Shown here: piece after piece, positions 8,501-53,558 of the stretch
Numbering within the stretch: the stretch's first letter is position 1
Layout: each line of letters begins with the position of its first letter
NCBI GenBank assembly: GCA_027314515.1
Contig: DAHVAR010000181.1
Location: 1-64,000 of the forward strand
DNA: 64,000 nucleotides
Reading direction: 5' to 3'
Source of the DNA: Actinomycetota bacterium
GTDB lineage: Bacteria > Actinomycetota > Actinomycetes > Streptosporangiales > Streptosporangiaceae
Program-made: the position numbers and the translations under genes
Notes under the pieces: generated by a model
What the model saw: the letters and a program-made list of their open reading frames with translations, nothing else
Told to the model about the DNA's origin: nothing
Database searches by the model: none

Positions 8501-10189
8501 ATGATCTCGAAGGATATTGCACCGTTTCGGGCTAAAGAATTTACGCGTTCCGGCGGCCGGCACATACTCCGGCTGCTGCTTGCGCTGGCCTGCCTGGCAG
8601 CGGCCCTGGCCGGGTGCGCCGACCCGGTCAGCACGGCTCCAGGGAAGCACCCTCCGCGCCACCACGCGTCCGCATCCGCGCCGGCCTCCGGCGGGTCCGC
8701 CCCCAACCGGTCCGGCACCGCGATCTCGCCGGCCGCCCGGTGCACTGTGTCCTACTTGCGGGCCGGCCTGCGCCACAGCAAGGCGACCGTCGATTCTGCC
8801 GTCATGAATACCAGCGGCACGGTGACGCCCACGCTCCCCCAGCCGCTGACCGGGCCGCTGACCGGGCTGCCAGCCTTCTGCGACGTCACGATTACCCAGG
8901 CCGACTCGGCCGGGAATCCGATCCACACCGACGTCTGGCTGCCTGCCTCGTGGAACGGGCGATTCCAGGGAACCGGCGGGGCGATCTACTCCTGCGGCCC
9001 GTACTACTACGAGATGGCGCCTGCCATCCAGGAGGGATATGCCACGGCTGGCACCGATTGCGGCGTCTCGCTGGCCGACCGGGATACCGCTGGCTGGGCG
9101 CTGACGGACGGGCGGCTCAACTGGCCGCTGATCGATGACTTCGCCTATTCCGGCATCCACGTCATGACCGTGACCGGCAAGGCGGTGACCAGGGCCTATT
9201 ATTCGTCGGCACCGCGGTTCTCCTACTTCAACGGGTGCTCTACCGGCGGGCGCGAAGGGCTCGTCGAAGCCCAGCGGTACCCGGCCGACTACAACGGCAT
9301 CGTCTCCGGCTCCCCGGCCATCAACTGGACGCAGTTCATCCCTGCCGAGATCTGGCCTCAGCTGGTGATGAACGAGACGGGTGACTTCCTGCCAAGCTGC
9401 AAGGAAGCCGCGTTCGTGACCGCCGCCGTCAAGGCGTGCGGCAACTCCAGCGGAGTCATCGTCAACCCCTCGGCGTGTCACTGGAACCCGTACGCCCTGG
9501 TGGGCGAAGTGACACCCTGCGGCGTCATCACGCGGCAGGACGCCGCGGTGATGACGAAGATCTGGCAAGGGCCGCAGAGCTCGAGTGGCAAGCGGTTGTG
9601 GTACGGGCTCGAGCGCGGCGCCAGCCTGGCCGGCCTGGCCGCCACCGCCACCAGCGCCAGCGCCAGCGGGGTGACAACCGGCCATCCGTTCCCCATCCCG
9701 GTCAGCTGGCTGGGGACGTGGCTACTGCGGAACCCGTCGTGGAACTGGCGCACGCTGACGTACGCGCAGTTCGACCACCTCTTCCAGCAGTCCGTGAGCG
9801 AGTTCGCCAGCACCTTCGCCGCGAACGACCCGGACCTCGCCGCGTTCAAGCGCGACGGCGGGAAGATCATCATCTGGCACGGCCTGGCTGACCAGCTCAT
9901 CTTCCCGCAGGGCACGGTGCGGTACTACCGGCAGGTGCAGCGCACGATGGGCGGCCCGAGCCAGACCGACTCCTTTGCCAGGCTGTTCCTCGCGCCGGGC
10001 GCCCAGCATTGCGCTAGCGGTGCCGGCCCGGCCCCGGCCGGGCCGGCGCAGCCGCTGGCATCACTGGTCAACTGGGTCGAGAGAGGCAAAGCGCCCAGCA
10101 GCATTCCCGGCTCACTGACCAACCCCGTCACGGGCGCCGCGACCCCGGCACGGCCGCTCTGCCTTTACGGCGAGCGTCACGGCTGCTAG
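8501..10189 (+). CDS. tannase/feruloyl esterase family lipoprotein
   Basis: 562 residues. A lipoprotein signal peptide (LACLAAALAGC lipobox, Cys near residue 39) anchors it outside the membrane. The alpha/beta-hydrolase core has the nucleophile elbow GCSTGGREG, acidic residues in the GLADQLIFPQGT segment and the catalytic His in LAPGAQHCASG. This is the arrangement of the tannase/feruloyl esterase family, whose nucleophile Ser and catalytic His are bridged by neighbouring cysteines. Members release gallate, ferulate or similar aromatic acids from plant esters. No partner genes indicate the substrate. The N-terminal extension before the hydrophobic stretch may mean a slightly later true start. 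Confidence 0.85.
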   Translation: MISKDIAPFRAKEFTRSGGRHILRLLLALACLAAALAGCADPVSTAPGKHPPRHHASASAPASGGSAPNRSGTAISPAARCTVSYLRAGLRHSKATVDSAVMNTSGTVTPTLPQPLTGPLTGLPAFCDVTITQADSAGNPIHTDVWLPASWNGRFQGTGGAIYSCGPYYYEMAPAIQEGYATAGTDCGVSLADRDTAGWALTDGRLNWPLIDDFAYSGIHVMTVTGKAVTRAYYSSAPRFSYFNGCSTGGREGLVEAQRYPADYNGIVSGSPAINWTQFIPAEIWPQLVMNETGDFLPSCKEAAFVTAAVKACGNSSGVIVNPSACHWNPYALVGEVTPCGVITRQDAAVMTKIWQGPQSSSGKRLWYGLERGASLAGLAATATSASASGVTTGHPFPIPVSWLGTWLLRNPSWNWRTLTYAQFDHLFQQSVSEFASTFAANDPDLAAFKRDGGKIIIWHGLADQLIFPQGTVRYYRQVQRTMGGPSQTDSFARLFLAPGAQHCASGAGPAPAGPAQPLASLVNWVERGKAPSSIPGSLTNPVTGAATPARPLCLYGERHGC

Positions 10190-10536: not shown

Positions 10537-12288
10537 ATGAATCAGGACATAACGTCTCGGCTCGGGGCTGACCTCTTTCTGCTGCACGCGCCTAGCGTCT
10601 ACGACTTCCGCGAGCGCGACGACATGCTATTCGCTTACCTGAGCGACAGCGACAGCGTCAATGTCACCTCGATATACGAGATGTACCCCATCGGCTGGTT
10701 CTCGATCAAGCAGCACCTGGCTGACCACGGTTTCGACACGAAGATCGTGAACGTCGCCTCGCTGATGCTCATGCATCCTGACCTGGATGTCAGAAAGCTG
10801 CTGGGCCGCCTGGAGGCGCCTATCTTCGGGTTCGACCTGCACTGGATGACGCAATGTCATGGCGCCATTGAGCTGGCGGCTGTCCTGAAAGAAGTGCACC
10901 CGGACGCGCTGACCATTTTCGGCGGCATCTCGGCGACGTATTACGCCAGCCAGCTCATCCGCTACCCGAGCGTCGACGTCGTGGTTCAGGGTTACGACAC
11001 CCTGGAGCCGGTGACCGAGCTGGTCAGGCGGGTCCGGCAGGGCCGCCGGGACCTGAGCGCCATCCCGAATCTGCTCTATAAGGCCGGCGGTGAGGTCCAG
11101 GCCACCGGATTCACCCACAAGCCGGCCACCCGGTACAACGACGTGCGCAACGACTGGTCGTTTTACCGCGATACGCCCGGCGCCGGGCCGTCGGCGTCCA
11201 AGCTGATCATGACCCTGCCCAATACCGGGTGCGCGCATGACTGCGGCTGGTGCGGCGGATCGCGCTTCTCTTACCGCAACATCATGGGCGTCCGCAAGAC
11301 CCTGGTCCAGAAGGATAACGAGCTCATCGTGAAAGAGCTCCGGACCATGGGCGAAGCGGCGAAGCACACCTCGATATATGCGCTTCAGTGTTATTCAGAA
11401 AACAAGGTGCGCATGCACCAGTATCTGGACGCGGTGAAAGAGGTTGGCTACAACAGCGTCTTCTTCGAGCAGTTCAACCTGACTCCGCCCGATACGCTCA
11501 AGAAGATGGGCGAGTCGACCACCGCCTACATCATGCTCTCGCCGGAATCCCACGACCCCAAGATAAGCGCCGCAGCCGGCCGCGGTACCTACACGATGGC
11601 CGAGATGGAGGCCTGGATTCCGCGCGCCCTGGACGCCGGGGTGAAGGGAGTCATGATCTGGTTCTTCATCGGCATGCCGTACCAGGACCGGCAGTCGGTG
11701 CTGGACACGGTGGCGTACTCCGAGCGCCTGATACGCACGTTCGGCGGATGGGACGCGCTACCGCTGATCTGCCCGATGGTGCCGTTCCTGGACCCCGGAT
11801 GCCGGTTCTTCGAGGAGCCGGACCAGCATGGTTACCGCATCTTCCACCGCACGCTTGAGGAACACCGGCGCGCGATGGTCGAGCCGCTGTGGTACCGGCG
11901 GCTGAACTACCAGACACGCTGGCTGGACAGGCGCCAGCTGCAGGACGTCTCCTACGAGGCAATTGCCCGCCTGGTCGAGATCAAGGGCGAGTACGGGGTA
12001 CTGCCGTCCTGGTTCTGCCAGGCCATACTGAAGACCATCGAGGAGACACGGCAGCTGCTCGGGGAAATGGAGCGGGCTCTGGTACTCGACAGCAAGCTGC
12101 CGGCCGCGCTACGGGACGAGATACGTTCGTACAACCGCAAGATCCTGGCCTATTCAAGCGATCAGATCGTCCCGGTACGACGTCCGTTCGGCGGGCGGTG
12201 GTTCGACGACATGACGGTCCCGGAGGAGATGATCGAGGACATCCTGCGGCCTCGGGCGGCGGTCCGGTGCGCCGGCGCGGCAATCTGA
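10537..12288 (+). CDS. B12-binding-type radical SAM protein
   Basis: 583 residues. N-terminal cobalamin-binding-like Rossmann domain (about 10-170: IGWFSIKQHLADHGFDTKIVN, then FGGISATYY), though the classical DxHxxG histidine loop is not clear (DLHWMT instead). The radical SAM domain follows, with the CxxxCxxC cluster motif in GCAHDCGWC (Cys 232, 236, 239). Further conserved parts are AYIMLSPESHDP and MIWFFIGMPYQD. The C-terminal 150 residues are helical. Cobalamin-dependent radical SAM enzymes usually methylate unactivated carbon or phosphorus, or rearrange rings. The protein belongs by position to the gene cluster that follows. The specific reaction is not recognisable. Confidence 0.75.
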   Translation: MNQDITSRLGADLFLLHAPSVYDFRERDDMLFAYLSDSDSVNVTSIYEMYPIGWFSIKQHLADHGFDTKIVNVASLMLMHPDLDVRKLLGRLEAPIFGFDLHWMTQCHGAIELAAVLKEVHPDALTIFGGISATYYASQLIRYPSVDVVVQGYDTLEPVTELVRRVRQGRRDLSAIPNLLYKAGGEVQATGFTHKPATRYNDVRNDWSFYRDTPGAGPSASKLIMTLPNTGCAHDCGWCGGSRFSYRNIMGVRKTLVQKDNELIVKELRTMGEAAKHTSIYALQCYSENKVRMHQYLDAVKEVGYNSVFFEQFNLTPPDTLKKMGESTTAYIMLSPESHDPKISAAAGRGTYTMAEMEAWIPRALDAGVKGVMIWFFIGMPYQDRQSVLDTVAYSERLIRTFGGWDALPLICPMVPFLDPGCRFFEEPDQHGYRIFHRTLEEHRRAMVEPLWYRRLNYQTRWLDRRQLQDVSYEAIARLVEIKGEYGVLPSWFCQAILKTIEETRQLLGEMERALVLDSKLPAALRDEIRSYNRKILAYSSDQIVPVRRPFGGRWFDDMTVPEEMIEDILRPRAAVRCAGAAI

Positions 12289-12324
12289 TCCTCGTCGTCC
12301 GCTAAGGCGCGGGCGCCGTGCGCG

Positions 12325-13611
12325 TCAGGTCCGCCGTGCGCGTCCGATCCGCAGGGCGAGCGCGCGCGGCCCGCGGACCTGACCGGTCGACCACCTCACC
12401 GCCGGCGGATCAGCCAGGCTGAAGCTCGGAATTCGCTGCAGCCAGACCTCAAGCGCCACCTGCAATTCCATCCGGGCCAGCCGCGCACCGAGGCAGTGAT
12501 GGATGCCAAGGCCGAACGCCGCGTGCCGGTTGACCGCACGGTCGATGACCACCTCGGCCGGCCGGTCGAACTGCGCCGGGTCGCGGTTCGCCGCCGGGAA
12601 CGACAGCAGGACCCAGTCGTCGGCCTTCATGTCGGCCCCGCGAAAGTGCAGGTCCTGCTTCACCAGCCGGGCCATGGTGACCGGGGCATAAGCCCGCAGG
12701 AACTCCTCGATCGCGACTGGCAGCAGTCCGGGCTCGGCGACCAGCCGCTCGCGGTCCCGCGGGAAGCTGGCCAGATGCCACAGCGAGGCGCCGATCGCGC
12801 TCCAGGTCGTGTCGATGCCGGCGATGAGCAACAGCGTCATCGTGCCGACGACGTGCGAGACGTCTAGCTTGCGGCCGTTCAGCTCGGCGTTGATCAGGAA
12901 TGTGGTCAGGTCGTCCCGCGGGTTCTCCAGATGGTCGTGTACCTGCGCGAGCAGGTAGTAGAACAGCGCCGACTTGCGGGTGACGCGCTCTTGCGGCGGC
13001 AGGTTGATGCCTTCGAGTGTGTTCTTGGCGAACTCACGGAACTGCGCTCCGTCGCCTGCCGGGAAGCCGAGCATGTCGGCGATGACCCGGATCGGGATGT
13101 ATTGCGCGTACTCGGCAGCGGCATCAACGACATCGCTCCCGTCGAACGCATCGATGAGCGAGTGGCACAGCGCCCTGGCCGCCGGCTCCTGCTTGCTGAC
13201 TGCTGCCTTGGTGAACGCCGGGAGCAGCAGCTTGCGTGCCGCGCGGTGAAACGGCGGGTCGGAGGTTATCGGCGGGGAGCCGCCGATCGGCGCCAGTTCA
13301 CGCGGCGGCCGGAAGTTTCCCATGATGACCGACCGGGAGGAGAAGTGCTCAGTGTCGTAGGCGATCGCCGCCACGTCCTCGTAGCGGGTCGCCAGCCAGG
13401 CGCCGCCGAACCTGCCGGTGTGCGCGATCGGGCAGCGCTGCCGCAGATCGTCCTGGATCGCAAACGGGTCTTGCGCCCACTCGGGCTCGGTGTGCGAGAA
13501 GTCCGTCGCCCAGTCGGCGACCGGGCCGGTGACTATCTCGCTGCGGATCCCGGGGGACTCACCGTCGCGCTTCTCCCACTGATGCCCGGCGAAGCGGTTA
13601 TCGACAGTCAC
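12325..13611 (-). CDS. cytochrome P450
   Basis: 428 residues from GTG 13611, one base after the stop of the ferredoxin gene. Oxygen-binding I-helix AGIDTTWSAIG, EEFLRAY (ExxR-type salt bridge) and the heme loop FGLGIHHCLGARLAR with the thiolate Cys are all present. Length and motifs fit soluble bacterial class I P450s such as the CYP105/107-like groups. Electrons probably come from the ferredoxin encoded immediately upstream. A hydroxylation or oxidative tailoring step in the adjacent biosynthetic cluster is likely. The gene converges with the radical SAM gene. Confidence 0.92.
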   Translation of the reverse strand: MTVDNRFAGHQWEKRDGESPGIRSEIVTGPVADWATDFSHTEPEWAQDPFAIQDDLRQRCPIAHTGRFGGAWLATRYEDVAAIAYDTEHFSSRSVIMGNFRPPRELAPIGGSPPITSDPPFHRAARKLLLPAFTKAAVSKQEPAARALCHSLIDAFDGSDVVDAAAEYAQYIPIRVIADMLGFPAGDGAQFREFAKNTLEGINLPPQERVTRKSALFYYLLAQVHDHLENPRDDLTTFLINAELNGRKLDVSHVVGTMTLLLIAGIDTTWSAIGASLWHLASFPRDRERLVAEPGLLPVAIEEFLRAYAPVTMARLVKQDLHFRGADMKADDWVLLSFPAANRDPAQFDRPAEVVIDRAVNRHAAFGLGIHHCLGARLARMELQVALEVWLQRIPSFSLADPPAVRWSTGQVRGPRALALRIGRARRT

Positions 13612-13612
13612 C

Positions 13613-13813
13613 TCATGTCCCTTCGACAAGCGCGATCGCGTGCTCCGGGCAGTTGAGCGCCGCGCGCCGGGCGTCGTCCTGCTGCTCCGGTGGCACGACA
13701 CCGTCGCCAAGCACCGTCCCGTAGCCCTCCTCGTCATCGCCGAAAAGGCCGGGCGCGAGGTCGTAGCAGCGTCCGTGCCCCTGGCACAGGCCGGCCTCGA
13801 TCTGCAGTTTCAC
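13613..13813 (-). CDS. [3Fe-4S]-type ferredoxin for the P450
   Basis: 66 residues from GTG 13813, with GAGAGGA upstream. Cysteines in LCQGHGRCYDLAP and NCPEHAI give the three-Cys pattern of the small [3Fe-4S] ferredoxins that partner actinomycete P450s. The acidic middle (FGDDEEGYG) is usual for partner docking. It is co-translated with the P450 (TGA and the next GTG one base apart), so it is very probably its dedicated redox partner. Confidence 0.9.
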   Translation of the reverse strand: MKLQIEAGLCQGHGRCYDLAPGLFGDDEEGYGTVLGDGVVPPEQQDDARRAALNCPEHAIALVEGT

Positions 13814-13965
13814 CAGAACAGTCCTCTCAGCTGAGAACGACAGCGCCCCGATCAGCTCCGGCGGCCCGAACAGGCGAAGGGTCGCTGCCGGCCCGCCGCG
13901 TCGCAGCGCGCCGCCCGCTGCTGATGACGAGCAGCGGGCGACCTGCGAGCGCACCGGGCAAGCCC

Positions 13966-14034
13966 TGACGCCTCCAGGCAAATTGACGCCTCCAGGCAAA
14001 CTCACCCCGACAGCAAACTCACCCCGACAGCAGT
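13966..14034 (+). repeat. two back-to-back short tandem duplications upstream of the decarboxylase
   Basis: The 17-mer TGACGCCTCCAGGCAAA occurs at 13966-13982 and 13984-14000. It is followed at once by CTCACCCCGACAGCAAA at 14001-14017 and a near-identical copy at 14018-14034. Both pairs lie in the roughly 390-bp divergent region (13814-14202) between the ferredoxin and decarboxylase genes. The rest of that region (14035-14190) is AT-richer and probably contains promoters. The repeats could be a regulator-binding array or replication slippage. Confidence 0.7.
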
Positions 14035-14202
14035 ATGAAACCACATCGCCATGCCGCCGGGCGCTGGGTTGGGTTGTTCGTTACGCGTATTTTCTTAACT
14101 CATTAATTGTCACGCTGTTTACCCGCGCAGGCCACGGGAATGGCCCCTGCGCCGAAACATTGTTGCTGAGATTTGCATTTCCCCGAGAGGAGTTCGGAGT
14201 CC

Positions 14203-15795
14203 ATGGGGCTCACAATCCCCGTCATCGACGGCGAGGACCAGGGCGGGCTCGCATGCGCCCAGCAGCCGAATGCCGGGGCGCAGGCTGCCACCAGCACTGA
14301 CTACGGCCGGGCGCCCTCGCCGTTCGCAATGGACGGAAAGGACTTCCGGCTTCTCGGTAACCGGCTAGTAGAGACGCTTGCCGCCTATCTAGACAAGCTT
14401 CCGCAGGAGCCCGTTTACCGCCCATTGCCGGCCGAAGTAAGGCAAGAACTAGAGGAAATGGAGCTACCCGCCGAGGGAGAATCTCCGGAGGAGGTCATCG
14501 ACAGCTTTCTCCGGCTGGTGCTGCCATACGGCCGCGGCCAGAATCATCCGTGTTTCGCTGCGTTTGTTGACCCGGCCGCGTCGAAGCTGAGCATGCTGGC
14601 GGCATTTGCCGCGGCGGTCACCAATACGAGCGGAGCTGGTGGTAATTACGCCGCTATATACGTGGAGCGCGCGGTTATCCGGTGGCTTGCCGAGATCGTC
14701 GGCTTCCCGCCGGGCTCCAGCGACGGGGTCCTCCTCGGCGGCGGCTCGGATGCGAACCGGCACTGCCTGGAAGTCGCGCGGTACGCCGGCGCGCGGGCGG
14801 GCGGCTGGGACGTCCGCGAGGAAGGCCTGTCCGGACACCCGAAGCTCACCATGTACATGTCGGCTGAGGGGCATTCCTGCCTGGAAAAGGCAGCATTCAC
14901 CCTCGGTCTCGGCGCCCCGCGGAAGGTGGCCGTCGGGGCGGACTTCCGGATGTCCCTGGCCCGCCTGCGGGCCGCGGTCGCGGCTGACCGCGCGGCCGGC
15001 TGCCTGCCCGTCCTGGTAGCCGCCAACGCGGGAAGCGTGAAGACCGGTGCCATCGACCCGCTCGATGATCTCGCTGACTTCTGCCGCAAGGAGGACCTCT
15101 GGCTGCACGTCGACGGCGCCTACGGCGGCTTCGGGGTACTCGACCCTCGGCTCGCGCACTGGTACTCCGGGCTCGATCGGGCCGACTCGGTCGCCCTCGA
15201 TCCGCACAAATGGCTGGCGGTGGCCATCGGCTGCAGTTGCGCGATAGTGCGGCAGGGCGCGCTGCTACAGGACACCTACAAGCTCGTCCCCTCCTATCTC
15301 AGCCTGCCGCCGGGACAGGGATTCGCCGGGGGTACCTGGTACTCGCATCGCAGCGCCGAGCAGACCAGGGACTCCGGCCGGGCGCTCAAGACCTTCTGGA
15401 ACATCCAGCAGGCCGGGAAGACCGGCCTGGTCGATCACGTCCAGCGGCACGTCGACCTGGCGCGCCACCTGGAGAAGGTCATCGAAGCCAGCCCTGAGCT
15501 GGAACTGCTGGCAACCGGGCCGCTGACCGCGGTGTGCTTCCGGTACGTGCCGGCCGTGCGCGCCGACGAGGCGAGCCTGGACCTGCTGAACCAGGCGATC
15601 ATGGCCGACCTTCAAGTCGGCGGGCAGGCGTTCCTGGCCGGCACGGACATCCGCGGCCGCTTCGCGTTGCGGTCCTGCGCCCTGCACTACGCCCTTGACG
15701 AAGGCCACGTGCAAACCATCGTCGACGCTGTCACAGGCGCCGGGAGGCGCCGCGTCCTGGCCGAAGCGGCTGGCAGCAGACCGGGGCCCCGATGA
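14203..15795 (+). CDS. PLP-dependent group II amino-acid decarboxylase
   Basis: 530 residues from ATG 14203 (GAGAGGAG upstream). Group II PLP fold: the cofactor region TNTSGAGGNYAAIYVERAVIRW, GGGSDANRHCLEVAR, HVDGAYGGFG with the PLP-binding Asp, and the Schiff-base lysine in ALDPHKWLAV. These match aromatic-L-amino-acid, glutamate and diaminobutyrate decarboxylases. In this cluster it could make an amine building block or, as some members do, an aldehyde by oxidative deamination. Its TGA overlaps the start of the MurT-like gene (ATGA), so the two are coupled. The substrate cannot be assigned by eye. Confidence 0.88.
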   Translation: MGLTIPVIDGEDQGGLACAQQPNAGAQAATSTDYGRAPSPFAMDGKDFRLLGNRLVETLAAYLDKLPQEPVYRPLPAEVRQELEEMELPAEGESPEEVIDSFLRLVLPYGRGQNHPCFAAFVDPAASKLSMLAAFAAAVTNTSGAGGNYAAIYVERAVIRWLAEIVGFPPGSSDGVLLGGGSDANRHCLEVARYAGARAGGWDVREEGLSGHPKLTMYMSAEGHSCLEKAAFTLGLGAPRKVAVGADFRMSLARLRAAVAADRAAGCLPVLVAANAGSVKTGAIDPLDDLADFCRKEDLWLHVDGAYGGFGVLDPRLAHWYSGLDRADSVALDPHKWLAVAIGCSCAIVRQGALLQDTYKLVPSYLSLPPGQGFAGGTWYSHRSAEQTRDSGRALKTFWNIQQAGKTGLVDHVQRHVDLARHLEKVIEASPELELLATGPLTAVCFRYVPAVRADEASLDLLNQAIMADLQVGGQAFLAGTDIRGRFALRSCALHYALDEGHVQTIVDAVTGAGRRRVLAEAAGSRPGPR

Positions 15796-17306
15796 CTGCC
15801 CGGACGCCACGGCACGCAACCGTCCGGGGAGAGCGTCAGGTGCGCGTCGTGGCCAGCCCGACCGCTGCCGCCTCCGGTGAGGGCAGCGCGCCGCTGCCGC
15901 CGTCAGCGCAAGCGCGCCTGGCGCTCGCGCTAGCGGCCGGCAAGGCGGCTGAGACCGCCTCCAGGTTCCTGCGGGCCGGCGGCGGGACTAGCTTCCCCGG
16001 CACCGTCGCCCGCTGGATCGACCCGCACATCCTGCGGAAGGTCGCGGCCGCGAGCGACGCCGGCAAGGTAGTCGTCACCGGCAGCAACGGCAAGACAACG
16101 ACCTGCCGCATGCTCGCTGCCCTCGCGCAGGCCAGCGGTCTCGCGGTCACCCAGAACCGGTCTGGCTCCAACCTGTTGCAAGGCGTGATCTCAGCCGCCG
16201 TGCGCGGGGCGGACCTGCGCGGCCGGATGGACGCTCAGCTTCTGCTGCTTGAGGTCGACGAGGCGACCGTACGGCAGGTGAATCCGGCGGTGCGGCCCGA
16301 CACGTTCCTGGTCACGAACATCTTCCGGGATCAGCTAGACCGCTTCGGTGAGCTGTACTCGATGGCAAAGGGCATTGAGGACGTCATCGAGGCGCTTCCG
16401 GCGTCAGCCACCGTCGTGCTCAACGGCGACGATCCGCTGGTAGCCAGCCTCGCCCCGGCGGCACGCGCACGCCGGCTGTACTTCGGAGTCCAGGCTGACA
16501 GCGCCGGCCTGCCCGAGCCAGAGCACGCCGCAGACACCATCCGCTGCGTCCGCTGCCAGCACCCGCTGAGCTACCGCGCGGTGTACCTCTCCCACCTGGG
16601 CGATTACTGGTGCCCGGAGTGCCACAGCGCCCGCCCGGCCCTGGACGTCGCGGTGACCGAAGTGCGGTCGTCACCCGAAGCCGGGTCGACGATCACGGTG
16701 CAGACACCGCAGGGAGCATTCCCGCTCGACGTGCCGCTGGCCGGCCTGCACAACGTGTACAACGCGGCGGCGGCGCTCAGCTGCGCGATCGCGCTGGCCC
16801 TGCCGCGGCCGCTGGAGCCGGCCGGCGCGCGCGCTGCCCTGGCGCGGCTGCGCCCGGCGTTCGGCCGCCTGGAGGAGATCCAGGCAGGCGACCGGCGGGT
16901 GGTACTCGCGTTCGTCAAGAACCCGACGTCCTACAACGCCACCATGCGGGAGGTGCTGCAGCGGCCCGGCCGAAAGCACGTCCTGGCCGCGCACAGCAAC
17001 ACCGTGGTCGACGGGGAAGACTTCGCCTGGCTGTGGGACGTGGACCTCGAGCAGCTCGTACCGCAGCTAGCGAGCCTTACCGTCAGCGGGACCAGGGCGG
17101 AGGAAGTCATGCTGCGGTTCAAGTACGCGGGTGCTGAACCCGGCAGCACCCTGGTCATCCATGATCGCGCGGCTGCCCTGCGCGCCGCGCTGACCCGCAC
17201 GCCGCCAGGCGAATCGCTGTACATCTTCGCTGGCTACACCCCGATGCGAGAGCTGCGGAGCATCATGCAGCGGCACGCGTGGGTGCCGCCGTTCTGGGAG
17301 GAGTGA
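15792..17306 (+). CDS. MurT-like Mur ligase family protein
   Basis: 504 residues. After about 60 variable residues comes the MurT N-terminal region (TASRFLRAGGGTSFPGTVARWIDP), the ATP P-loop VVTGSNGKTTTCRML, a Cys4 zinc ribbon (CVRCQ...WCPECH) inserted in the central domain as in MurT, and a DUF1727-like C-terminal domain (FAGYTPMRELRSIM). MurT with GatD normally amidates D-glutamate of lipid II using glutamine. Here the gene is sandwiched between a decarboxylase and a carrier-protein pathway and overlaps the decarboxylase gene, which argues for a paralogue recruited to amidate or ligate a small molecule. It could instead be the only housekeeping copy; a genome search would tell. Confidence 0.82.
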   Translation: MTARTPRHATVRGERQVRVVASPTAAASGEGSAPLPPSAQARLALALAAGKAAETASRFLRAGGGTSFPGTVARWIDPHILRKVAAASDAGKVVVTGSNGKTTTCRMLAALAQASGLAVTQNRSGSNLLQGVISAAVRGADLRGRMDAQLLLLEVDEATVRQVNPAVRPDTFLVTNIFRDQLDRFGELYSMAKGIEDVIEALPASATVVLNGDDPLVASLAPAARARRLYFGVQADSAGLPEPEHAADTIRCVRCQHPLSYRAVYLSHLGDYWCPECHSARPALDVAVTEVRSSPEAGSTITVQTPQGAFPLDVPLAGLHNVYNAAAALSCAIALALPRPLEPAGARAALARLRPAFGRLEEIQAGDRRVVLAFVKNPTSYNATMREVLQRPGRKHVLAAHSNTVVDGEDFAWLWDVDLEQLVPQLASLTVSGTRAEEVMLRFKYAGAEPGSTLVIHDRAAALRAALTRTPPGESLYIFAGYTPMRELRSIMQRHAWVPPFWEE

Positions 17307-17310
17307 GGAC

Positions 17311-18186
17311 ATGACAGCGGCGCCGATGACGGTCCGCATCTGCTACCTGTACCCGAGACTGCTGAGCGTCGCGGGTGACAGGGGCAACCTGTTCGCCCTC
17401 ATGCAGCGCTGCGCCTGGCGAGGGATCCGCTACAGCGTGACCGAGGCCGATGCCGGGGTCGTCCCTGACTTCGCGGAGGCCGACCTGATCCTGTTGCACG
17501 GCGGCCAGGATCGCGAGATGACGGCCGCCGCGCAGGACCTCGCGGCGAAGTCCGGCCCGCTGCGAGAAGCGATCGAGTCCGATGCCGTCGTCCTGGCCGT
17601 CTGCGCCGGTTACCAGCTCCTGGGCCGGTACTACGCCCCGCCGGAAGGACCGCCCATCCACGGCCTCGGAGTGCTGGACGTGGTGACCGAGGGCGGCCCG
17701 AAACGATTCATCGGCCACGTGGCGGTGCATTGCGATCTTTCTCCCGGCAGGCAGCATCAGCTGGCCGGGTTCGAGAATCACAGCGGGCGCACCTATCTGG
17801 GCGGCAACGTCAGGCCGCTGGGAAGGGTGCTGGCCGGCTCCGGCAACAACGGCGAAGACGGCACCGAAGGCGCCCGCTACCGCGAGGTGTACGCCACCTA
17901 CCTGCACGGCCCGGTGCTGCCGAAGAACCCGTGGCTGGCCGATCACCTGCTGTCCAGGGCGCTAGCGCATCGCTATCAGGACGTCAGCCCGCTTGCCCCG
18001 CTCACCGACCGGGCGGAGGTGCAGGCGCACGGGGCCGCGCTCCGGCTTGCCCGGCGGCCGGCCGGGCGGTGGCGGGCAGCCGCGGCCGCCGTATCCCGGA
18101 TCGGGCCGCCAGCGCGGATGCCAGCGACGCGGCCGGACAGAGGCGCCAGCACTACAGACAAGGCGACAGGGTGGACTTCTCGCTGA
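17311..18186 (+). CDS. GatD-like glutamine amidotransferase, partner of the MurT-like protein
   Basis: 291 residues. Class I (triad) glutaminase resembling GatD/CobQ: nucleophile in VLAVCAGYQLLG (Cys 98), GFENHSGRTYLGG, and catalytic His in YATYLHGPVLPKNP. It begins 4 bases after the MurT-like gene, in the usual murT-gatD order. GatD releases ammonia from glutamine and passes it to the ligase partner. About 60 residues at the C-terminus are Ala/Arg-rich low complexity and exceed the normal GatD length of roughly 240. This tail overlaps the next gene start by 16 bp. Confidence 0.82.
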   Translation: MTAAPMTVRICYLYPRLLSVAGDRGNLFALMQRCAWRGIRYSVTEADAGVVPDFAEADLILLHGGQDREMTAAAQDLAAKSGPLREAIESDAVVLAVCAGYQLLGRYYAPPEGPPIHGLGVLDVVTEGGPKRFIGHVAVHCDLSPGRQHQLAGFENHSGRTYLGGNVRPLGRVLAGSGNNGEDGTEGARYREVYATYLHGPVLPKNPWLADHLLSRALAHRYQDVSPLAPLTDRAEVQAHGAALRLARRPAGRWRAAAAAVSRIGPPARMPATRPDRGASTTDKATGWTSR

Positions 18187-19316
18187 GCGCGCAGCAGCGC
18201 GAACTGACGGAGGCGGCGACCGCATTCGCCCGGAAGGAACTCAACCAGGATCTGGCCAAGCGAGACGAGGCCGGAGAGTTCCCGCGGGACGCCTGGCGGG
18301 CATGTGCCAAGTTCGGTGTCCAGGGCCTGCCCGTACCTGCCGAGCTGGGCGGCGCCGGCTGCGACGTCCTCACCACGGCGCTTGTCATGGAAGCCCTCGG
18401 CTACGGCTGCCAGGACAACGGGCTGCTTTTCTCGCTCAACGCGCAGATGTGGAGCGTCGAACTGCCGCTGGTCATCTTCGGCACCGCAGCCCAGCGGCAG
18501 GCCTACCTGCCCGGCCTGGTGTCCGGTGACATCATCGGCGGGCACGCGATGACGGAGCCCGGCACCGGTTCCGATGCCCTGCACCTGCGATCACGGGCCG
18601 AGCGCCGCGGCGATCACTACCTGCTGACCGGGGCCAAGCAGTACATCACGAACGCTCCGGTCGCCGATGTGCTGCTGTTCTACGCCCAGCTGGCGGACCG
18701 TCCCGGATTGACCGGGCTATCCGCGTTCCTGGTCGACGCCCGGGCACCCGGCGTCGAGATAACCGGCGGCTCCGACAAGATGGGCCTGCGGACCTCGCCG
18801 ATGGGCGAGATAGCGCTGACCGACTGCCTCGTTCCGGCCGAGAACCGGCTGGGACCTGAAGGCGCGGGGATGGCCATCTTCAACTCCTCCATGGAGTGGG
18901 AGCGAAGCTGCCTGTTCGCCAGCGCTGTCGGCGCCATGCGCCGGCAACTCGACGCGTGCGTGGAGTACGCGAACTCCAGGGAGCAGTTCGGCCAGCCCAT
19001 CGGGAAGTTCCAGGCCGTGGCCGGAATGCTGGCCGACATGTACGTGCGCCTGGAGGCGGCGAAGCTGCTGATCTACCGGGTCGCCTGGCTCAAGCAGCAG
19101 GGCAAGTCCGCTCCGGCCGAGGCGGCCGCCGCCAAGCTCTTCACCAGCGAAGCATGGGTGGCCTCCAGCCGCGATGCGATCCAGGCTCACGGCGCCTGGG
19201 GCTACCTGAAGGAGGCCGGGGTTGAGCGCGATCTCCGGGACGCGATCGCCAGCACCATCTACTCGGGAACCTCGGAGATCCAGCGGGTGATACTCGCCCG
19301 GATGCTCGGCCTATGA
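18171..19316 (+). CDS. acyl-CoA dehydrogenase family flavoprotein, probable prolyl-carrier-protein dehydrogenase
   Basis: 381 residues from GTG 18171. Full acyl-CoA dehydrogenase layout: helical N-terminus, FAD-binding MTEPGTGSD and ITNAPVADV segments, and C-terminal QIHG-like IQAHGAWGY. The features SSMEWER, REQFGQPIGKFQAV and the ending IYSGTSEIQRVILARMLGL closely resemble the flavoenzymes that oxidise prolyl-S-PCP to pyrrolyl-S-PCP (PltE, RedW and CloN3 types). An adenylation enzyme and a carrier protein follow directly, the same trio as in pyoluteorin, prodigiosin and clorobiocin pathways. Assignment to proline is inference; other carrier-bound amino acids are possible. Confidence 0.75.
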   Translation: MDFSLSAQQRELTEAATAFARKELNQDLAKRDEAGEFPRDAWRACAKFGVQGLPVPAELGGAGCDVLTTALVMEALGYGCQDNGLLFSLNAQMWSVELPLVIFGTAAQRQAYLPGLVSGDIIGGHAMTEPGTGSDALHLRSRAERRGDHYLLTGAKQYITNAPVADVLLFYAQLADRPGLTGLSAFLVDARAPGVEITGGSDKMGLRTSPMGEIALTDCLVPAENRLGPEGAGMAIFNSSMEWERSCLFASAVGAMRRQLDACVEYANSREQFGQPIGKFQAVAGMLADMYVRLEAAKLLIYRVAWLKQQGKSAPAEAAAAKLFTSEAWVASSRDAIQAHGAWGYLKEAGVERDLRDAIASTIYSGTSEIQRVILARMLGL

Positions 19317-19377
19317 GCCGCCAGGACAGCCGGCGCAGCGCCACGGCGCATTCAGCGCATTCGGAAAGGGAACAGCG

Positions 19378-20970
19378 ATGGCATATCTGCTTCACCGCCT
19401 GCTGACTGATGCGGCGGCCCGGCAGCCGCGACGGCCGGCGATAGCGGCCAGCGGCTGCGTGCTCACCTACCAGGAGCTGGACCAGCTGAGCAACAAGGTG
19501 GCCCGCGCGCTGCTCCGGCTGGGCGTGTCACCCGGCGACCGGGTGGGAGTGCTCGCCCCCAAGTCGGCTGCGTCGGTCATCGGGATATACGGCGCACTGA
19601 AGGCCGGCGCGTGCTACGTGCCGCTCGACCCGAAGGCACCCGACCAGCGGCTCAGCTATGTCGCGGCGGACAGCGGCATGACCGTCATCATCGCGGACGA
19701 GGCGCGGGCACCGCACGCTGCGGCCCTGGCCAGCCGCGTTCGCCAGGCGCGCGGCGTCCTGGTGGCCGGCGTTCCCGGCAGCCAGGACGGCGCGCAGGCC
19801 GGGCCGTCCACGGACCAGGGCGCGGCCGTTCTGCCGTGGAGCGCGGTGGCCGCGGAATCAGCCGCGCCGTTGCCGGACCACGCGATCGAGACCGACCTCG
19901 CCTACATCCTGTACACCTCGGGGTCGACCGGGATGCCGAAGGGCGTGATGATCTCCCACCGCAACTCGCTCTCCTTCGTCGAGTGGTCAGCCGCCGCTGC
20001 CGGGCTCAGCGACCGGGACCGCGTCTGCAGTCCAGCCCCGCTCCACTTCGATCTGTCGGTATTCGACCTGTTCGCCAGCTGTCAGGCCGCAGCCTGCCTG
20101 TGCGTGCTGCCCGAGGGGGCGGCAACCTTCCCGGTGTCGATCGCGCGATGGCTCGAAACCGAGCGCATCTCGGTCTGGTACTCGGTGCCATCGGTGCTCA
20201 CGCTGCTCGCCTGCTATGGCGGCCTGCAGCAGTTTGACCTTGCCCACGTGCGGACGGTGATCTTCGCCGGAGAGGTGTTCCCGCCCAGGTACCTGGCAAA
20301 GCTGATGACCGGGCTCCCGCACCCTCGCTACCTGAACTGGTACGGGCCTACCGAGACCAACGTGTGCACGGCGTTCGAGGTGCCGCCGGGCAGTGCCGGC
20401 GCCGGGCCCGTCCCCATCGGCAAGGCCTGCGCCAACACCGAGGTGTTCGGGATCACCGGCGAAGGCCGCCAGGTGTCGCTGCCCGGCGAGATCGGCGAGC
20501 TGTACGTGCGCGGGCCCTCGCTGATGCGCGGGTACTGGGGCCAGCCAGCCAAGACAAGGGAGGTGCTGGTCGCCAGCCCGTTCCGGGCCGAATACGAAGA
20601 GCCCGTGTACCGGACAGGCGACCTGGTCACCCTGGACCAGGCCGGAAACTACCTCTACCTCGGCCGCCGGGACACCATGGTGAAGATTCGCGGCTACCGC
20701 GTCGAACTGGGCGAGGTGGAAGCCGCGCTGTACCGGCATCCGGCCATCAGGGAGGCGGCGGTGGTGCCGGTACCGGACGAACTACTCGGCAACCGCCTGC
20801 GGGCGGTCGTCACCGCCGACGAGCCGGGCAGCCTGGGCCGCCAGAGCGTGCTGGATCACTGCCGGCAATGGCTGCCGAGCTACATGGTCCCCGACCTCGT
20901 CGAGATCCGGCAGGCGCTGCCGAGGACGTCGACCGGCAAGGTCGACCGCGCCGGCCTCGCCAGCGAGTAG
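19378..20970 (+). CDS. stand-alone amino-acid adenylation enzyme, probably proline-activating
   Basis: 530 residues from ATG 19378 with AAAGGGAA upstream. NRPS-type A-domain core motifs are in order: LTYQELD (A1), YILYTSGSTGMPKG (A3), YGPTETNVCT (A5), ELYVRGPSLMRGYW, VYRTGDLV (A7), KIRGYRVELGEVE (A8) and TSTGKVDR with the catalytic Lys (A10). The stretches APLHFDLSVFDLF and LPHPRYLNWYGPTETNVCT are characteristic of free-standing prolyl-AMP ligases such as PltF/RedM. It would load an amino acid, likely L-proline, onto the carrier protein encoded next. No thiolation domain is fused. Confidence 0.8.
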   Translation: MAYLLHRLLTDAAARQPRRPAIAASGCVLTYQELDQLSNKVARALLRLGVSPGDRVGVLAPKSAASVIGIYGALKAGACYVPLDPKAPDQRLSYVAADSGMTVIIADEARAPHAAALASRVRQARGVLVAGVPGSQDGAQAGPSTDQGAAVLPWSAVAAESAAPLPDHAIETDLAYILYTSGSTGMPKGVMISHRNSLSFVEWSAAAAGLSDRDRVCSPAPLHFDLSVFDLFASCQAAACLCVLPEGAATFPVSIARWLETERISVWYSVPSVLTLLACYGGLQQFDLAHVRTVIFAGEVFPPRYLAKLMTGLPHPRYLNWYGPTETNVCTAFEVPPGSAGAGPVPIGKACANTEVFGITGEGRQVSLPGEIGELYVRGPSLMRGYWGQPAKTREVLVASPFRAEYEEPVYRTGDLVTLDQAGNYLYLGRRDTMVKIRGYRVELGEVEAALYRHPAIREAAVVPVPDELLGNRLRAVVTADEPGSLGRQSVLDHCRQWLPSYMVPDLVEIRQALPRTSTGKVDRAGLASE

Positions 20971-21034
20971 CCCCGGCGGCGCGTGCTCGCCGGAACTGAC
21001 GTTCATCACTAAACCAAGGAAGAAAGGCGTCCAC

Positions 21035-21295
21035 GTGGAGACGATCATCAAGGATTACATCAGCCAGGAACTGGTCCGCGACCCCGAGTTGCTGCCCCTG
21101 GCCGACGAGGCATCACTGCTGGACAGTGGCATCCTCGACTCGCTGAGCCTGCTGCAATTGGTGGTCTTCCTGGAGGAGCGCTTCGCGATCACGGTGGGTG
21201 ACGCGGATCTGCTCCCGGAGAATTTCGCCAGCGTCAACACCATCTGCGCGTACCTGCGCGCCAGGGAGCCCGCGAAGCAGGCGGCACATGGGTGA
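21035..21295 (+). CDS. acyl/peptidyl carrier protein
   Basis: 86 residues from GTG 21035, with GGAAGAAAGG upstream. Four-helix carrier protein with the phosphopantetheine site in LLDSGILDSLSLLQLVVFLEE (Ser in the DSL motif). Free-standing carriers of this size with an acidic first half work with stand-alone adenylation enzymes and acyl-CoA-dehydrogenase-type oxidases. It follows the adenylation gene and overlaps the next gene by 8 bp. It probably carries the prolyl/pyrrolyl intermediate. Confidence 0.85.
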   Translation: METIIKDYISQELVRDPELLPLADEASLLDSGILDSLSLLQLVVFLEERFAITVGDADLLPENFASVNTICAYLRAREPAKQAAHG

Positions 21296-22295
21296 CAGCC
21301 GGGAAGGGCGGGTGCTCCGCAAGATAGGCGGCGTGGCCTACTGGGCTGGTGGCGCACCCGTCATGGCCCGGCTGCCGGCTGCCATCGGCTACCGCCTGGC
21401 ATGCTGGCGAGGCGACTGGCTATTCCGGCGGCACGCCGCCGAGCGGACCGAACTGGCAGCCAACCTGCGGCAGGTGCTCGGAAGTCAGCTCAGCCCGGCG
21501 GCAGCGCAGGACGTGACCCGGGAGTGGTTCCGGCTCGCGTCCTGCGAGGCCGTCGACGTGAAACGGCTACGGCACAGCGCGCTACCGCTGCGGCGGCTGG
21601 TCGAGATTCGCGGCCGGGAGCACCTGGAGACGGCACTTGCCGGAGGCAAGGGAGCCATCCTCTGCTCGGCGCACTTCGGATCCTTCGACAGCGCCTTCTC
21701 CCTGCTGAACCCCAGCGGCTATCCGGTCACCACCATCGGGCGCTGGCAGCACAAGTACACGGCGGGCCTGTCCGCCGCGGAGCGGCGGTTCTGGGCCCTG
21801 GTCTACGCCAAGCCGCTGCAACGCCTCCGGCAACGGCCGAACATCGAGCCATGGCCGGGCCACCTCGACGTAGCGGCACGGGCAGCCGCGGTGCTGCGCG
21901 CCAATGAAGTTGTGACGATCTGCATCGACGCACCGCCGCTCGACAGCGACCAGGCACGCGCCGTCGCGGTTCCCTTCCTCGGGGGCCAGGCCAGTCTGTT
22001 GCCAGGGATCGTGACCCTCGCCCAGGTGACGGGAGCGCCGGTGCTGATGACATTCCTGCACCGCTGCGCGGACTACCGGCACCAGGTGCTGGAAATCTCA
22101 GCCCCGTTGCCCACCGGAGGAGACACCGCGACGGCCTTCGCGCGCTGCGCGGCCGAAGTGAGCGCGACTATCACCAGGAGTCCGGCACATTGGCGCTACT
22201 GGGCGAGTACGACGGATCTCGTCACGCTTGGGCTTGTCCCGCCGCTGCGGGACAGATCGGCGGCGGTGGCCAGGTCCGTTGCCGTGGCCAGCTGA
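21288..22295 (+). CDS. LpxL/HtrB-like acyltransferase
   Basis: 335 residues; the ATG at 21288 overlaps the carrier-protein gene. The lysophospholipid/lipid A acyltransferase fold shows an HX4D/E-like active site (SAHFGSFDSAF: His and Asp), with TIGRWQHKY, EVVTICIDAPPLDSD and the substrate strand ITRSPAHWRYW. In actinobacteria the family includes PatA-type mannoside acyltransferases. Here it directly follows a carrier protein, so it may transfer the carrier-bound acyl group (for example pyrrolyl) onto a hydroxyl or amine acceptor, ending the assembly line. That role is inferred from gene order only. Confidence 0.72.
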   Translation: MGDSREGRVLRKIGGVAYWAGGAPVMARLPAAIGYRLACWRGDWLFRRHAAERTELAANLRQVLGSQLSPAAAQDVTREWFRLASCEAVDVKRLRHSALPLRRLVEIRGREHLETALAGGKGAILCSAHFGSFDSAFSLLNPSGYPVTTIGRWQHKYTAGLSAAERRFWALVYAKPLQRLRQRPNIEPWPGHLDVAARAAAVLRANEVVTICIDAPPLDSDQARAVAVPFLGGQASLLPGIVTLAQVTGAPVLMTFLHRCADYRHQVLEISAPLPTGGDTATAFARCAAEVSATITRSPAHWRYWASTTDLVTLGLVPPLRDRSAAVARSVAVAS

Positions 22296-22405
22296 CGGTT
22301 CCGGCGCCGTCCGCGGCCTCCACACCATCGCCCATGGCAGCTACACCGGTACCGCAGCACGGCCGGGTGAACTATCGGCGGACAACGGTAGCCAGGAAGG
22401 GCTCG

Positions 22406-22870
22406 ATGAACGGCAGCGATCTGATCGTAGAGATCCCGTGGCTGTTCTTCGTCGTGTCGCTGGCCGCGATCTTCGTGCGGATCCGCAGGTCACGCGGCCC
22501 GCATCGCCGGCCGCCGCGTGATAGCCAGGCGGTGCAGCCGGCCCCGGATGCGCCGGCTCAGACTCCGCGCCGCTCGCGGACCGGGCCCCGAACGATCAGC
22601 ACGCGGGCGGCGAGCCGTGATCGCCGCCGGCAGCATCCACACGACCTCCACAGCCGTTGCGCTGAGGTGCCACAGCTACCGGCTGAACTGATCCGGGCTG
22701 GCCGCTGTCGCCCCCTCGAGGGCGGCCAGCACAGACAGGCAGGTCAGGCACCGGCCGGGCCCGCGACGATGAAAAGAGGATCACACGATGCCATCAGCGC
22801 TCGCCACGACGTCGCTGTGCGACGGCGGCGCCACCCGGCGAGGCTGGCTGCCCGCCCGGCCGCCCGCTAG
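22406..22870 (+). CDS. possible small membrane protein, unknown function
   Basis: An open frame from ATG 22406 with AGGAAGG about 8 bases upstream would give one membrane helix (IPWLFFVVSLAAIFVRIRR) followed by a long Arg/Pro/His-rich tail that overlaps the next gene in another frame. The first 35 residues look like a genuine short membrane protein. The rest has poor composition and may not be translated as such; a frameshifted or much shorter product is possible. No family is recognised. The roughly 490 bp between 22296 and 22787 contain nothing else that I can support. Confidence 0.3.
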   Translation: MNGSDLIVEIPWLFFVVSLAAIFVRIRRSRGPHRRPPRDSQAVQPAPDAPAQTPRRSRTGPRTISTRAASRDRRRQHPHDLHSRCAEVPQLPAELIRAGRCRPLEGGQHRQAGQAPAGPATMKRGSHDAISARHDVAVRRRRHPARLAARPAAR

Positions 22871-23588
22871 CGGACCAGGAGCCGGCGCCGCCCGGCTGGC
22901 GGGCCGCGGTCCCGCCGCGCCAGGCACCGGCGGCTTGCCTGGCGCCCGCACGGTCCTGGCCGTCACGGCCCGGCCGGGTCCGGAATCGGCGAGCCTCGGC
23001 AGGCTGCTCTACGCCTTCCGCGAAGCGGGCGCCGATCTCGCGCTGCTCTGCCTGACCAGGGGCGAGGCCTCACCGCTCAACTCGACGTGCCGGCCACTCG
23101 AGGCCGTCCGGCCGTGGGAGCTGCAACTGGCTGCCGGGCTGCTGGGCGTCCGGTCGGTCGCGGTGGCCGACTACCCCGACGGCGGGCTCAGCCACTGCCC
23201 CCTGCTGGCCCTCGCCCAGCGGGTACAGCGGGCGATTGACGAGCATGGCCCGGACCTGATCCTGGTGGCGGACCCGGTAGCGGGCGACGCCGATGACGCC
23301 AGGGCTGCCCGCGCGGTGTGCCTGGCGGCCGGCCGGGCCGGGGTAACTGTCGCTGCCCGCACCAGGCCCGGCGCCCGCGGCAGCTGGCCAGTCGACCTCG
23401 GATCGGGGGCCGAAGCCGCCAGGACGGTCCAGCGGTGCGCCGCAACGGCGCATGCCAGCCAGTCCGAGGCCCTGCCCGAGGTGCTCTGCGCTCTGGCTGA
23501 CCTCAGCTCTCGCGAGCACCTTCGCTGGCTGCCGCCCGCCGCGGCCAGGGTGCCGCGCCCGCGGGGGGCACAGAGGTGCCTCAGCTGA
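22788..23588 (+). CDS. LmbE/PIG-L-like protein with degenerate metal site
   Basis: 266 residues from ATG 22788 (AAGAGGA upstream). The fold is recognisable as GlcNAc-PI de-N-acetylase/LmbE: VLAVTA at the first strand, LRYAF-like helix, ADLALLCLTRGEAS, and GPDLILVADPVAGDADDARAARAV. In active members the first strand ends in AHPDDE and the later motif contains HPDH; here these read ARPGPES (about 61-67) and DADDAR. All expected zinc ligands therefore appear lost. The first 50 residues are Gly/Ala/Pro-rich. It is the last gene of the cluster strand and overlaps the GH76 gene end by 8 bp. A non-hydrolytic or structural role is likely. Confidence 0.65.
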   Translation: MPSALATTSLCDGGATRRGWLPARPPASGPGAGAARLAGRGPAAPGTGGLPGARTVLAVTARPGPESASLGRLLYAFREAGADLALLCLTRGEASPLNSTCRPLEAVRPWELQLAAGLLGVRSVAVADYPDGGLSHCPLLALAQRVQRAIDEHGPDLILVADPVAGDADDARAARAVCLAAGRAGVTVAARTRPGARGSWPVDLGSGAEAARTVQRCAATAHASQSEALPEVLCALADLSSREHLRWLPPAAARVPRPRGAQRCLS

Positions 23589-34822: not shown

Positions 34823-35281
34823 ATGTCCACTGAAGGCAGTCAAGCAGCACCACGTGTCGTGGTCGGCGTCGACGGCTCAGCCGAGTCGGTCAGCGCCCTG
34901 AGGTGGGCAGCCGGTTATGCCAAGGCAACCGGGGCCGCCCTCACCGCGGTGCTGTCCTGGCATTACCCGGCACCGGTCGGACTCGCCCCAGTCGGCGTCG
35001 CGCCCAGAGCAGTCTCCGACGAGGTGCGCTCGAACCTGCAGGAGGCGCTGGACAAGACGCTGGCCGAGGCCTTCGGCACCTCAGCGCCAGCAAACGTGCA
35101 GGCCAAGCTCGCCTATGGCCACCCGGCCGCGGTGCTGGTCGAGGAGTCCCGGCAGGCAGACCTGCTGGTGGTCGGCCATCGCGGGCACGGGGCGTTCACC
35201 GGCATGCTCGTCGGCTCGGTCAGCATCCATTGCGTGAGCAACGCGGCGTGCCCGGTCGTCGTGGTCCGCGGCCGGGCATGA
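34823..35281 (+). CDS. universal stress protein (UspA family)
   Basis: 152 residues from ATG 34823. Usp domain with [23 protein letters not shown] and the ATP loop [31 protein letters not shown]. Its TGA overlaps the start of phosphoketolase (ATGA), so stress protein and metabolic enzyme are translated together, an unusual and informative link. It is probably induced with the rest of the island through the box at 34706-34719. Confidence 0.9.
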
Positions 35282-53037: not shown

Positions 53038-53558
53038 GCGTCACCAGCACGGAACTGGCCAGCCATCGGTTCGCGGCCGGCCTGACGGCGCCTCAGCTTG
53101 ACCGGCTTGCCGCGATTGCCGCCAGCGTGGAACTGGCGGCTGGCACCCGGCTGTTCGACGAGGGCGGCCAGGCCGCCTCGCTGTGGCTGATCAGGTCTGG
53201 CCGGATCGCGCTTGACCTGCACGTGCCCGGACGCGACAGGCTGATCGTCGAGACGCTCGGGCCCGGCGACGAGCTGGGCCTGTCCTGGCTGGTCTCCCCG
53301 CCGCGATGGCAATTCGGGGCCATGGTCCAGCTCGCCGCGTCCGCGTTCGAGCTGACGGCCGCCGCGGTGACCAGCTTGTGCGAGAGCGATCACGAACTCG
53401 GTTACCAGGTGACCAGGCGGCTGCTCGACACTGCTATCGGCAGGCTGCAAGCCGCCCGGATCCGGATACTTGACCTGTATGCGGCGCCCCCGCGCGCGAC
53501 GCAGTCAAGCGGCGGTCCGCGGAGCGGCGGGCCTGCCCTGCCCGGCGGTTCGCGGTGA
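53034..53558 (+). CDS. cyclic-nucleotide-binding-domain protein within the hydrogenase operon
   Basis: 174 residues. One CRP-like cNMP-binding domain (AAGTRLFDEGGQAASLWLIRSGRIALDLHVPGRDRLIVETLGPGDELGLSWLV), then a helix (VTRRLLDTAIGRLQAARIRILDLYA), with no DNA-binding domain. It overlaps both neighbours by 4 bp, so it is made in fixed ratio with the hydrogenase subunits. It may be a regulatory subunit sensing a nucleotide or a structural accessory. Similar single-domain proteins occur in other actinobacterial group 3b operons, to my recollection. Confidence 0.85.
   Translation: MSVTSTELASHRFAAGLTAPQLDRLAAIAASVELAAGTRLFDEGGQAASLWLIRSGRIALDLHVPGRDRLIVETLGPGDELGLSWLVSPPRWQFGAMVQLAASAFELTAAAVTSLCESDHELGYQVTRRLLDTAIGRLQAARIRILDLYAAPPRATQSSGGPRSGGPALPGGSR

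Follow-up and report, generated by a model that had tools for sequence, protein, structure and literature searches.

An operon joining a carrier module to a MurT/GatD pair

MurT/GatD is familiar as an enzyme of peptidoglycan and as a drug target; what, then, might such a pair be doing among genes for the activation of a carrier-bound amino acid? The question is raised by a 64,000-nucleotide stretch of DNA (the window; positions 1 to 64,000 of contig DAHVAR010000181.1, assembly GCA_027314515.1) from a soil actinobacterium of the family Streptosporangiaceae. Its source genome is referred to as G000, and contigs of this genome and of its relatives are cited by G:C labels. At positions 10537-22295 the window holds a set of ten genes, encoding a radical S-adenosylmethionine (SAM) protein, a cytochrome P450, a ferredoxin, a pyridoxal phosphate (PLP)-dependent decarboxylase, MurT, GatD, an acyl-CoA dehydrogenase, an adenylation enzyme, a carrier protein and an LpxL-like acyltransferase. 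Taken as a whole, the explanation that we narrowly favour is that these Streptosporangiaceae genes form a secondary-metabolite cluster, which would make a proline-derived metabolite bearing a carboxamide installed by a divergent (type-2) MurT/GatD and tailored by the radical SAM enzyme and the P450. On this view the amidating genes came from a second, non-standard pair of MurT/GatD paralogues in Chloroflexota, and not from the lipid II-amidating pair of the host.

Seven of the genes form an operon on the + strand, in the order decarboxylase (14203..15795), MurT (15792..17306), GatD (17311..18186), dehydrogenase (18171..19316), adenylation enzyme (19378..20970), carrier (21035..21295) and acyltransferase (about 21288..22295). 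The decarboxylase gene starts with the ATG at 14203, preceded by a purine-rich ribosome site, and its end is overlapped by the start of MurT by 4 base pairs (bp). MurT and GatD are separated by 4 bp, GatD and the dehydrogenase gene overlap by 16 bp, and the carrier and acyltransferase genes by 8 bp, with gaps of 61 bp and 64 bp upstream of the adenylation and carrier genes, respectively. The radical SAM gene lies upstream of the operon on the + strand, with the P450 and ferredoxin genes in between on the - strand. A preliminary description of this DNA had named these families and claimed tight packing from 14203 to 22295; both statements hold, as every named gene matched its own family above the Pfam cut-off in a profile search of the window proteins, and overlaps or short gaps run throughout the operon.

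The MurT protein was scanned against one genome per species (84,980 species); all genomes in which the same operon turned up were actinobacterial and assembled from metagenomes, and most bear the label Streptosporangiaceae. Within the family of the window, a MurT at least 69% identical is present in 8 of 297 genomes, which are the same genomes as in the larger scan. The seven-gene operon occurs in six further Streptosporangiaceae genomes belonging to four genera (G024, G154, G181, G171, G041 and G036). G024, G154 and G181 each have the full set on one contig, and G171 has it on two; the G041 locus is truncated by contig ends on both sides, and in G036 the operon is spread over two contigs, with the radical SAM gene alone on another. 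Wherever the carrier module is present, the seven genes keep their order, and the flanking genes differ among the genomes carrying the operon. The radical SAM protein occurs intact in six cluster genomes and decayed in one more (7 of 8 in all); a search of the class beyond these, covering 296 other genomes, gave no hit. That the genes belong together, as had been proposed, is thus borne out by conservation of the operon in six further genomes, and the gene neighbourhoods show it recurring rather than its genes occurring separately in relatives.

A predicted proline-loading module

The adenylation enzyme is a stand-alone protein whose nine pocket positions we assigned after the Stachelhaus scheme, from an alignment to solved proline ligases. 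The resulting pocket, D-L-F-S-I-A-W-V-C, equals that of PigI (7thn) at all nine aligned positions; with PltF it has 6 of 9 positions in common and three that differ. The predicted substrate is therefore L-proline, which would be loaded on the peptidyl carrier protein (PCP; PP-binding family), in which the motif GILDSLSL, with the phosphopantetheine serine in DSLSL, is invariant in seven sequences. The acyl-CoA-dehydrogenase-family protein, a putative prolyl-carrier dehydrogenase, has AnaB (4irn) as its closest solved relative, at 468 bits, followed by the next chain at 348 bits and an L-prolyl-PCP dehydrogenase at 345 bits. Its catalytic Glu244 is invariant in seven loci, within a SMEWER motif that aligns with SMEWER of AnaB and SMIWEK of 5zw0, and corresponds to the residue mutated in 6af6 (Glu to Ala). 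The preliminary description had suggested proline as the probable carrier-bound amino acid, and the PigI-identical pocket and the AnaB-like dehydrogenase with its conserved glutamate both agree with it. The product of AnaB on its carrier is pyrroline-5-carboxyl (PMC3252866), and because AnaB is the nearest solved homologue, by analogy a pyrroline would be at least as likely as a pyrrole in the present case.

Related dehydrogenase-adenylation-carrier sets exist in other bacteria with different downstream enzymes, and none of those examined adjoins a MurT, GatD or LpxL-like gene. One proline-type set of adenylation, dehydrogenase and carrier genes was seen at locus L173, on plasmid pCLA1 of Streptomyces clavuligerus, by SbnA/SbnB-like and oxoamine-synthase-like genes (names read from the sequence); unannotated in its record, it is apparently another cluster.

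A second clade of MurT/GatD

The cluster MurT is a Mur ligase with a zinc ribbon and a MurT C-terminal domain, carrying the motifs GSNGKT, LEVDE, CxxC...CxxC and DGEDFAWLWD, while its partner GatD is a class I glutaminase (Cys98, His199) with CAGYQ and HGP; the exact HGPVL pattern is not matched in the GatD of G041. A split catalytic triad and the adenosine triphosphate (ATP) site are known in the Staphylococcus aureus enzyme (PMC6113224). The cluster pair has counterparts of its C94 and H189, the Cys and His of GatD, and of its D349, the Asp of MurT, and the ATP site and zinc ribbon are intact. The preliminary description had left room for these being the sole housekeeping copies. This is ruled out by an ordinary host MurT, 35% identical to the cluster MurT, on another contig (G000:C8), and by the ordinary copy in most cluster genomes. 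Against the NCBIfam equivalog model of MurT, the cluster protein scores 222 bits, below the cut-off of 800.

The Chloroflexota relatives of the cluster MurT are 50-63% identical to it. A view of these relatives as plain housekeeping copies had to be revised, as two MurT genes are present in 6 of 6 Chloroflexota genomes checked, the other copy (type 1) having GatD beside or near it, and the cluster falls in the second clade. In the tree, this type-2 clade (support 100/100) brings together the cluster copies, that of G177 (a genome with a decayed cluster) and a single copy from each Chloroflexota genome; it is separate from type 1, from Clostridia with Streptococcus pneumoniae (the latter a long branch) and from the actinobacterial copies. 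The clade is apparently undescribed, and a MurT/GatD pair in a biosynthetic cluster is described in no searchable paper. Two murT-gatD pairs are present in Ktedonobacteria-type Chloroflexota (L177-L182, L009-L036), and no described function was found for type 2.

Conservation was judged by a reference set of type 1, Clostridia and S. pneumoniae, to which four additional actinobacterial copies belonged. Of the 81 conserved MurT columns, 56 are retained in type 2, and nine carry a replacement in 90% or more of its sequences. Seven of these nine, at positions 374, 380, 401-403, 412 and 414, flank the KNP motif and fall in the loop that holds the catalytic Asp. In the S. aureus enzyme, the neighbouring DNADD motif has been suggested to engage the stem-peptide lysine (PMC6113224). 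Three conserved positions are replaced in type-2 GatD. This pattern of replacements suggests a different acceptor across the whole type-2 clade. That the substrate amidated by type-2 MurT/GatD is not lipid II, and that an actinobacterial pathway recruited the pair to place a carboxamide on a proline-derived metabolite, we regard as a plausible proposition somewhat short of probable.

Two further candidates were set aside. Acquisition of the whole cluster from Chloroflexota is unsupported; the six Chloroflexota genomes searched gave nothing but dehydrogenases with identities of 41% or less. Further MurT copies in G036, G105, G181 and G167 (36-44%) were considered as sister clusters; no other core gene lies alongside them at high identity, and these assemblies are possibly contaminated.

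Proposed pathway and alternative explanations

In the proposed pathway, L-proline would be activated by the adenylation enzyme and loaded on the carrier, and the dehydrogenase would oxidise prolyl-S-PCP to 1-pyrroline-5-carboxyl- or pyrrole-2-carboxyl-S-PCP. The acyl group would then be taken off the carrier by the LpxL-like enzyme and placed on a hydroxyl or an amine, the latter plausibly supplied by the decarboxylase. Type-2 MurT would turn a carboxylate of the acceptor or product into an acyl phosphate, to which GatD would supply ammonia from glutamine, giving a primary carboxamide, and the radical SAM enzyme and the P450 with its ferredoxin would tailor the product. What the sequence shows is the predicted specificity of the first step, the intact active sites and the conservation of the operon as a unit; the product, the acceptor and the order of steps are inferred.

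Several observations weigh against this pathway. The conserved set includes neither a transporter nor a regulator, and the cluster genomes are all draft or metagenome assemblies. The decarboxylase (DDC fold, group II, Pyridoxal_deC), which keeps its PLP residues, with DPHKW (PLP Lys), EGHSCLEK (stacking His) and (V/I)PSY (flexible-loop Tyr) present in eight sequences including that of G177, is matched at similar strength by tryptophan, aromatic and acidic amino-acid decarboxylases. The cluster MurT, moreover, is almost unchanged relative to the Chloroflexota type-2 copies (0 of 114 Chloroflexota-invariant columns), so that no change of substrate on recruitment is visible. Should the pathway nevertheless be right, a conserved biosynthetic operon with a diverged MurT/GatD would widen the substrate range of this amidating machine and provide a Mur-ligase amidotransferase working outside peptidoglycan, as well as a new route to primary amides for natural-product chemistry; it would also define a second, uncharacterised MurT/GatD clade in Chloroflexota. 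Since proline loading of the carrier can be predicted with confidence from the sequence, the operon is a clear target for the discovery of a new metabolite.

The decayed copy in G177 (L144:13476-16343 and L118:1-2413) bears on what the amidating pair may do. In this genome an adenylation orthologue is missing (37% for the best match), and nothing matches the P450 at 1e-60; its acyltransferase is a 41% remnant of the gene end only, and its radical SAM gene is broken, the catalytic core being deleted. Its decarboxylase, MurT and GatD have open frames with the catalytic residues present, and the ratio of nonsynonymous to synonymous substitution rates (dN/dS) of the retained genes, 0.21-0.52, is close to the 0.19-0.37 found among intact clusters, as under purifying selection. 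Their adjacency is presumed, since one contig ends with the decarboxylase gene and a different one begins with MurT/GatD. That all three were kept intact after the loss of the carrier module is the best indication that they work together. Retention of the pair after that loss would also fit a resistance gene, in which case the cluster MurT/GatD would be a cell-wall enzyme for self-protection or envelope maintenance, amidating the D-Glu of lipid II or of a related wall precursor, with the other genes making the metabolite. The catalytic and ATP-binding residues, which are as in lipid II isoglutaminyl synthases, the 56 of 81 type-1-conserved MurT columns that are kept, the very small difference between cluster and Chloroflexota copies, and a conserved set devoid of any other resistance gene or transporter are all consistent with such a role. 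However, the host already has an ordinary pair, what was retained is a type-2 pair, in which the region around the catalytic Asp is changed, and G177 also keeps the decarboxylase, which a resistance gene would not need; we judge a wall-directed function unlikely.

A second alternative centres on the acyltransferase. In AlmE-AlmF-AlmG lipid A glycylation, an adenylation enzyme, a carrier and an LpxL-family aminoacyl transferase belong to one system. The cluster protein matches PF03279 (Lip_A_acyltrans) at 67.7 bits against a cut-off of 22.3, and its HX4D motif, at residue 129, reads HFGSFD or HFGSYD in 6 of 7 acyltransferases and HFGSYN (N for D) in G036. Because of the gene order and the AlmG precedent, we infer by analogy that this enzyme transfers the acyl group off the carrier. 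No relatives of it were found on plasmids. The cluster might instead modify the cell envelope, the LpxL/PatA-like enzyme esterifying a prolyl or pyrroline-carboxyl group to a membrane lipid or glycolipid in the AlmE-AlmF-AlmG manner, and MurT/GatD acting on lipid-linked precursors. The enzyme family is membrane associated, PatA enzymes were the only solved relatives found, remote ones at 22 bits, and AlmG, an LpxL-family glycyltransferase, offers a precedent for aminoacyl transfer (cited in PMC11631085). Such a role would nevertheless leave the decarboxylase, P450 and radical SAM genes unexplained; the acyltransferase scores 58 bits against the PatA equivalog cut-off of 209, and related prolyl-carrier dehydrogenase genes elsewhere are in apparent small-molecule clusters. 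Envelope modification is given a low probability.

The tailoring genes in the preferred metabolite pathway are kept less uniformly. The cobalamin-binding radical SAM enzyme (10537..12288, +) has B12-binding and radical SAM domains with CX3CX2C at residues 232-239, and is 84-96% identical in G024, G154, G181, G171 and G036. It is TIGR04190-like, scoring 384 bits against the cut-off of 500 of this equivalog (Ta0216), for which no literature was found. A radical SAM paralogue, 31-33% identical, was noted at L146:5879-7762 (G154:C510), where its neighbours are universal-stress and pyridoxamine-oxidase-like genes. The P450 (12325..13611, -), whose start was corrected from 13737 to probably near 13611, and the 4Fe-4S ferredoxin (13613..13813, -), its presumed electron donor, were both identified by Pfam matches. 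Their inclusion in the set holds in part: they are beside each other in G024, G154, G181, G171 and G041, and missing from the cluster of G036, which has only a separate pair resembling a paralogous pair of the window's own genome. This second P450-ferredoxin pair (L171:7908-9381, G000:C169), 79% and 65% identical to the cluster pair, adjoins a regulator gene and genes resembling those of ergothioneine biosynthesis (as judged from sequence). The scattered tailoring genes of G036 would suit unrelated genes that are neighbours by accident, but such a chance arrangement is rejected as scarcely credible because it recurs in other genomes, with the seven-gene order kept wherever the carrier module is present and the radical SAM protein, intact or decayed, confined to cluster genomes in the class searched.

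Flanking sequences

Between the divergent ferredoxin and decarboxylase genes lies an intergenic region (13814..14202, no strand), a presumed control region on the basis of its position; at 13966-14029 it has tandem direct repeats of 17-18 bp, in two pairs. A scan for sigma-70 promoters and terminators gave no signal above chance. Downstream of the operon, a degenerate PIG-L/LmbE-like gene (22788..23588, +; Pfam match) had been counted as a member of the cluster; we left it out because it adjoins the cluster only in the nearest relative, G024, with 78% identity as against 91-98% for the core. A tannase/feruloyl-esterase gene at 8501-10189, just upstream of the radical SAM gene, is matched in the nearest relative in broken pieces only. 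Further along the window are a phosphoketolase-like gene followed by an acetate-kinase-like gene (35278-38837) and an NAD(P)-linked [NiFe]-hydrogenase-like gene set (51814-57048), all with names read from the sequence.

Comparison with known systems

No characterised pathway with this combination of genes was found in searchable papers, in agreement with the preliminary description. The prodigiosin (PigI/PigA/PigG), pyoluteorin (PltF and partners) and anatoxin-a (AnaC/AnaB/AnaD) systems are alike in having a stand-alone proline adenylation enzyme, an acyl-CoA-dehydrogenase-type prolyl oxidase and a free carrier; here, in contrast, an LpxL-like acyltransferase takes the place of a polyketide or oxoamine synthase, and a decarboxylase and MurT/GatD are added. 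A proline-derived acyl group and a B12 radical SAM enzyme meet in one cluster in the clorobiocin pyrrole pathway (CloN genes) too, where CloN6 methylates the pyrrole (PMC8992657); the present radical SAM protein is of the TIGR04190 type, with a likeness to CloN6 by context only, and sugar or coumarin genes are absent. AlmE-AlmF-AlmG likewise brings together an adenylation enzyme, a carrier and an LpxL-family transferase (PMC11631085), whereas here proline and a dehydrogenase are involved, the host is an actinobacterium without lipid A, and the transferases are likened at family level. With PatA, the phosphatidylinositol mannoside acyltransferase, the cluster enzyme shares the family and the HX4D active-site motif, although it is very distant (22 bits to solved enzymes) and well below the cut-off of the PatA model. 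Finally, the amidating pair resembles the lipid II isoglutaminyl synthase MurT/GatD of S. aureus, S. pneumoniae and Mycobacterium tuberculosis in its Mur ligase and class I glutaminase subunits, adjacent genes, zinc ribbon and split catalytic triad, but differs in belonging to a separate paralogue clade, in lying within a biosynthetic operon, in the nine conserved MurT positions that are replaced and in being extra to an ordinary copy.

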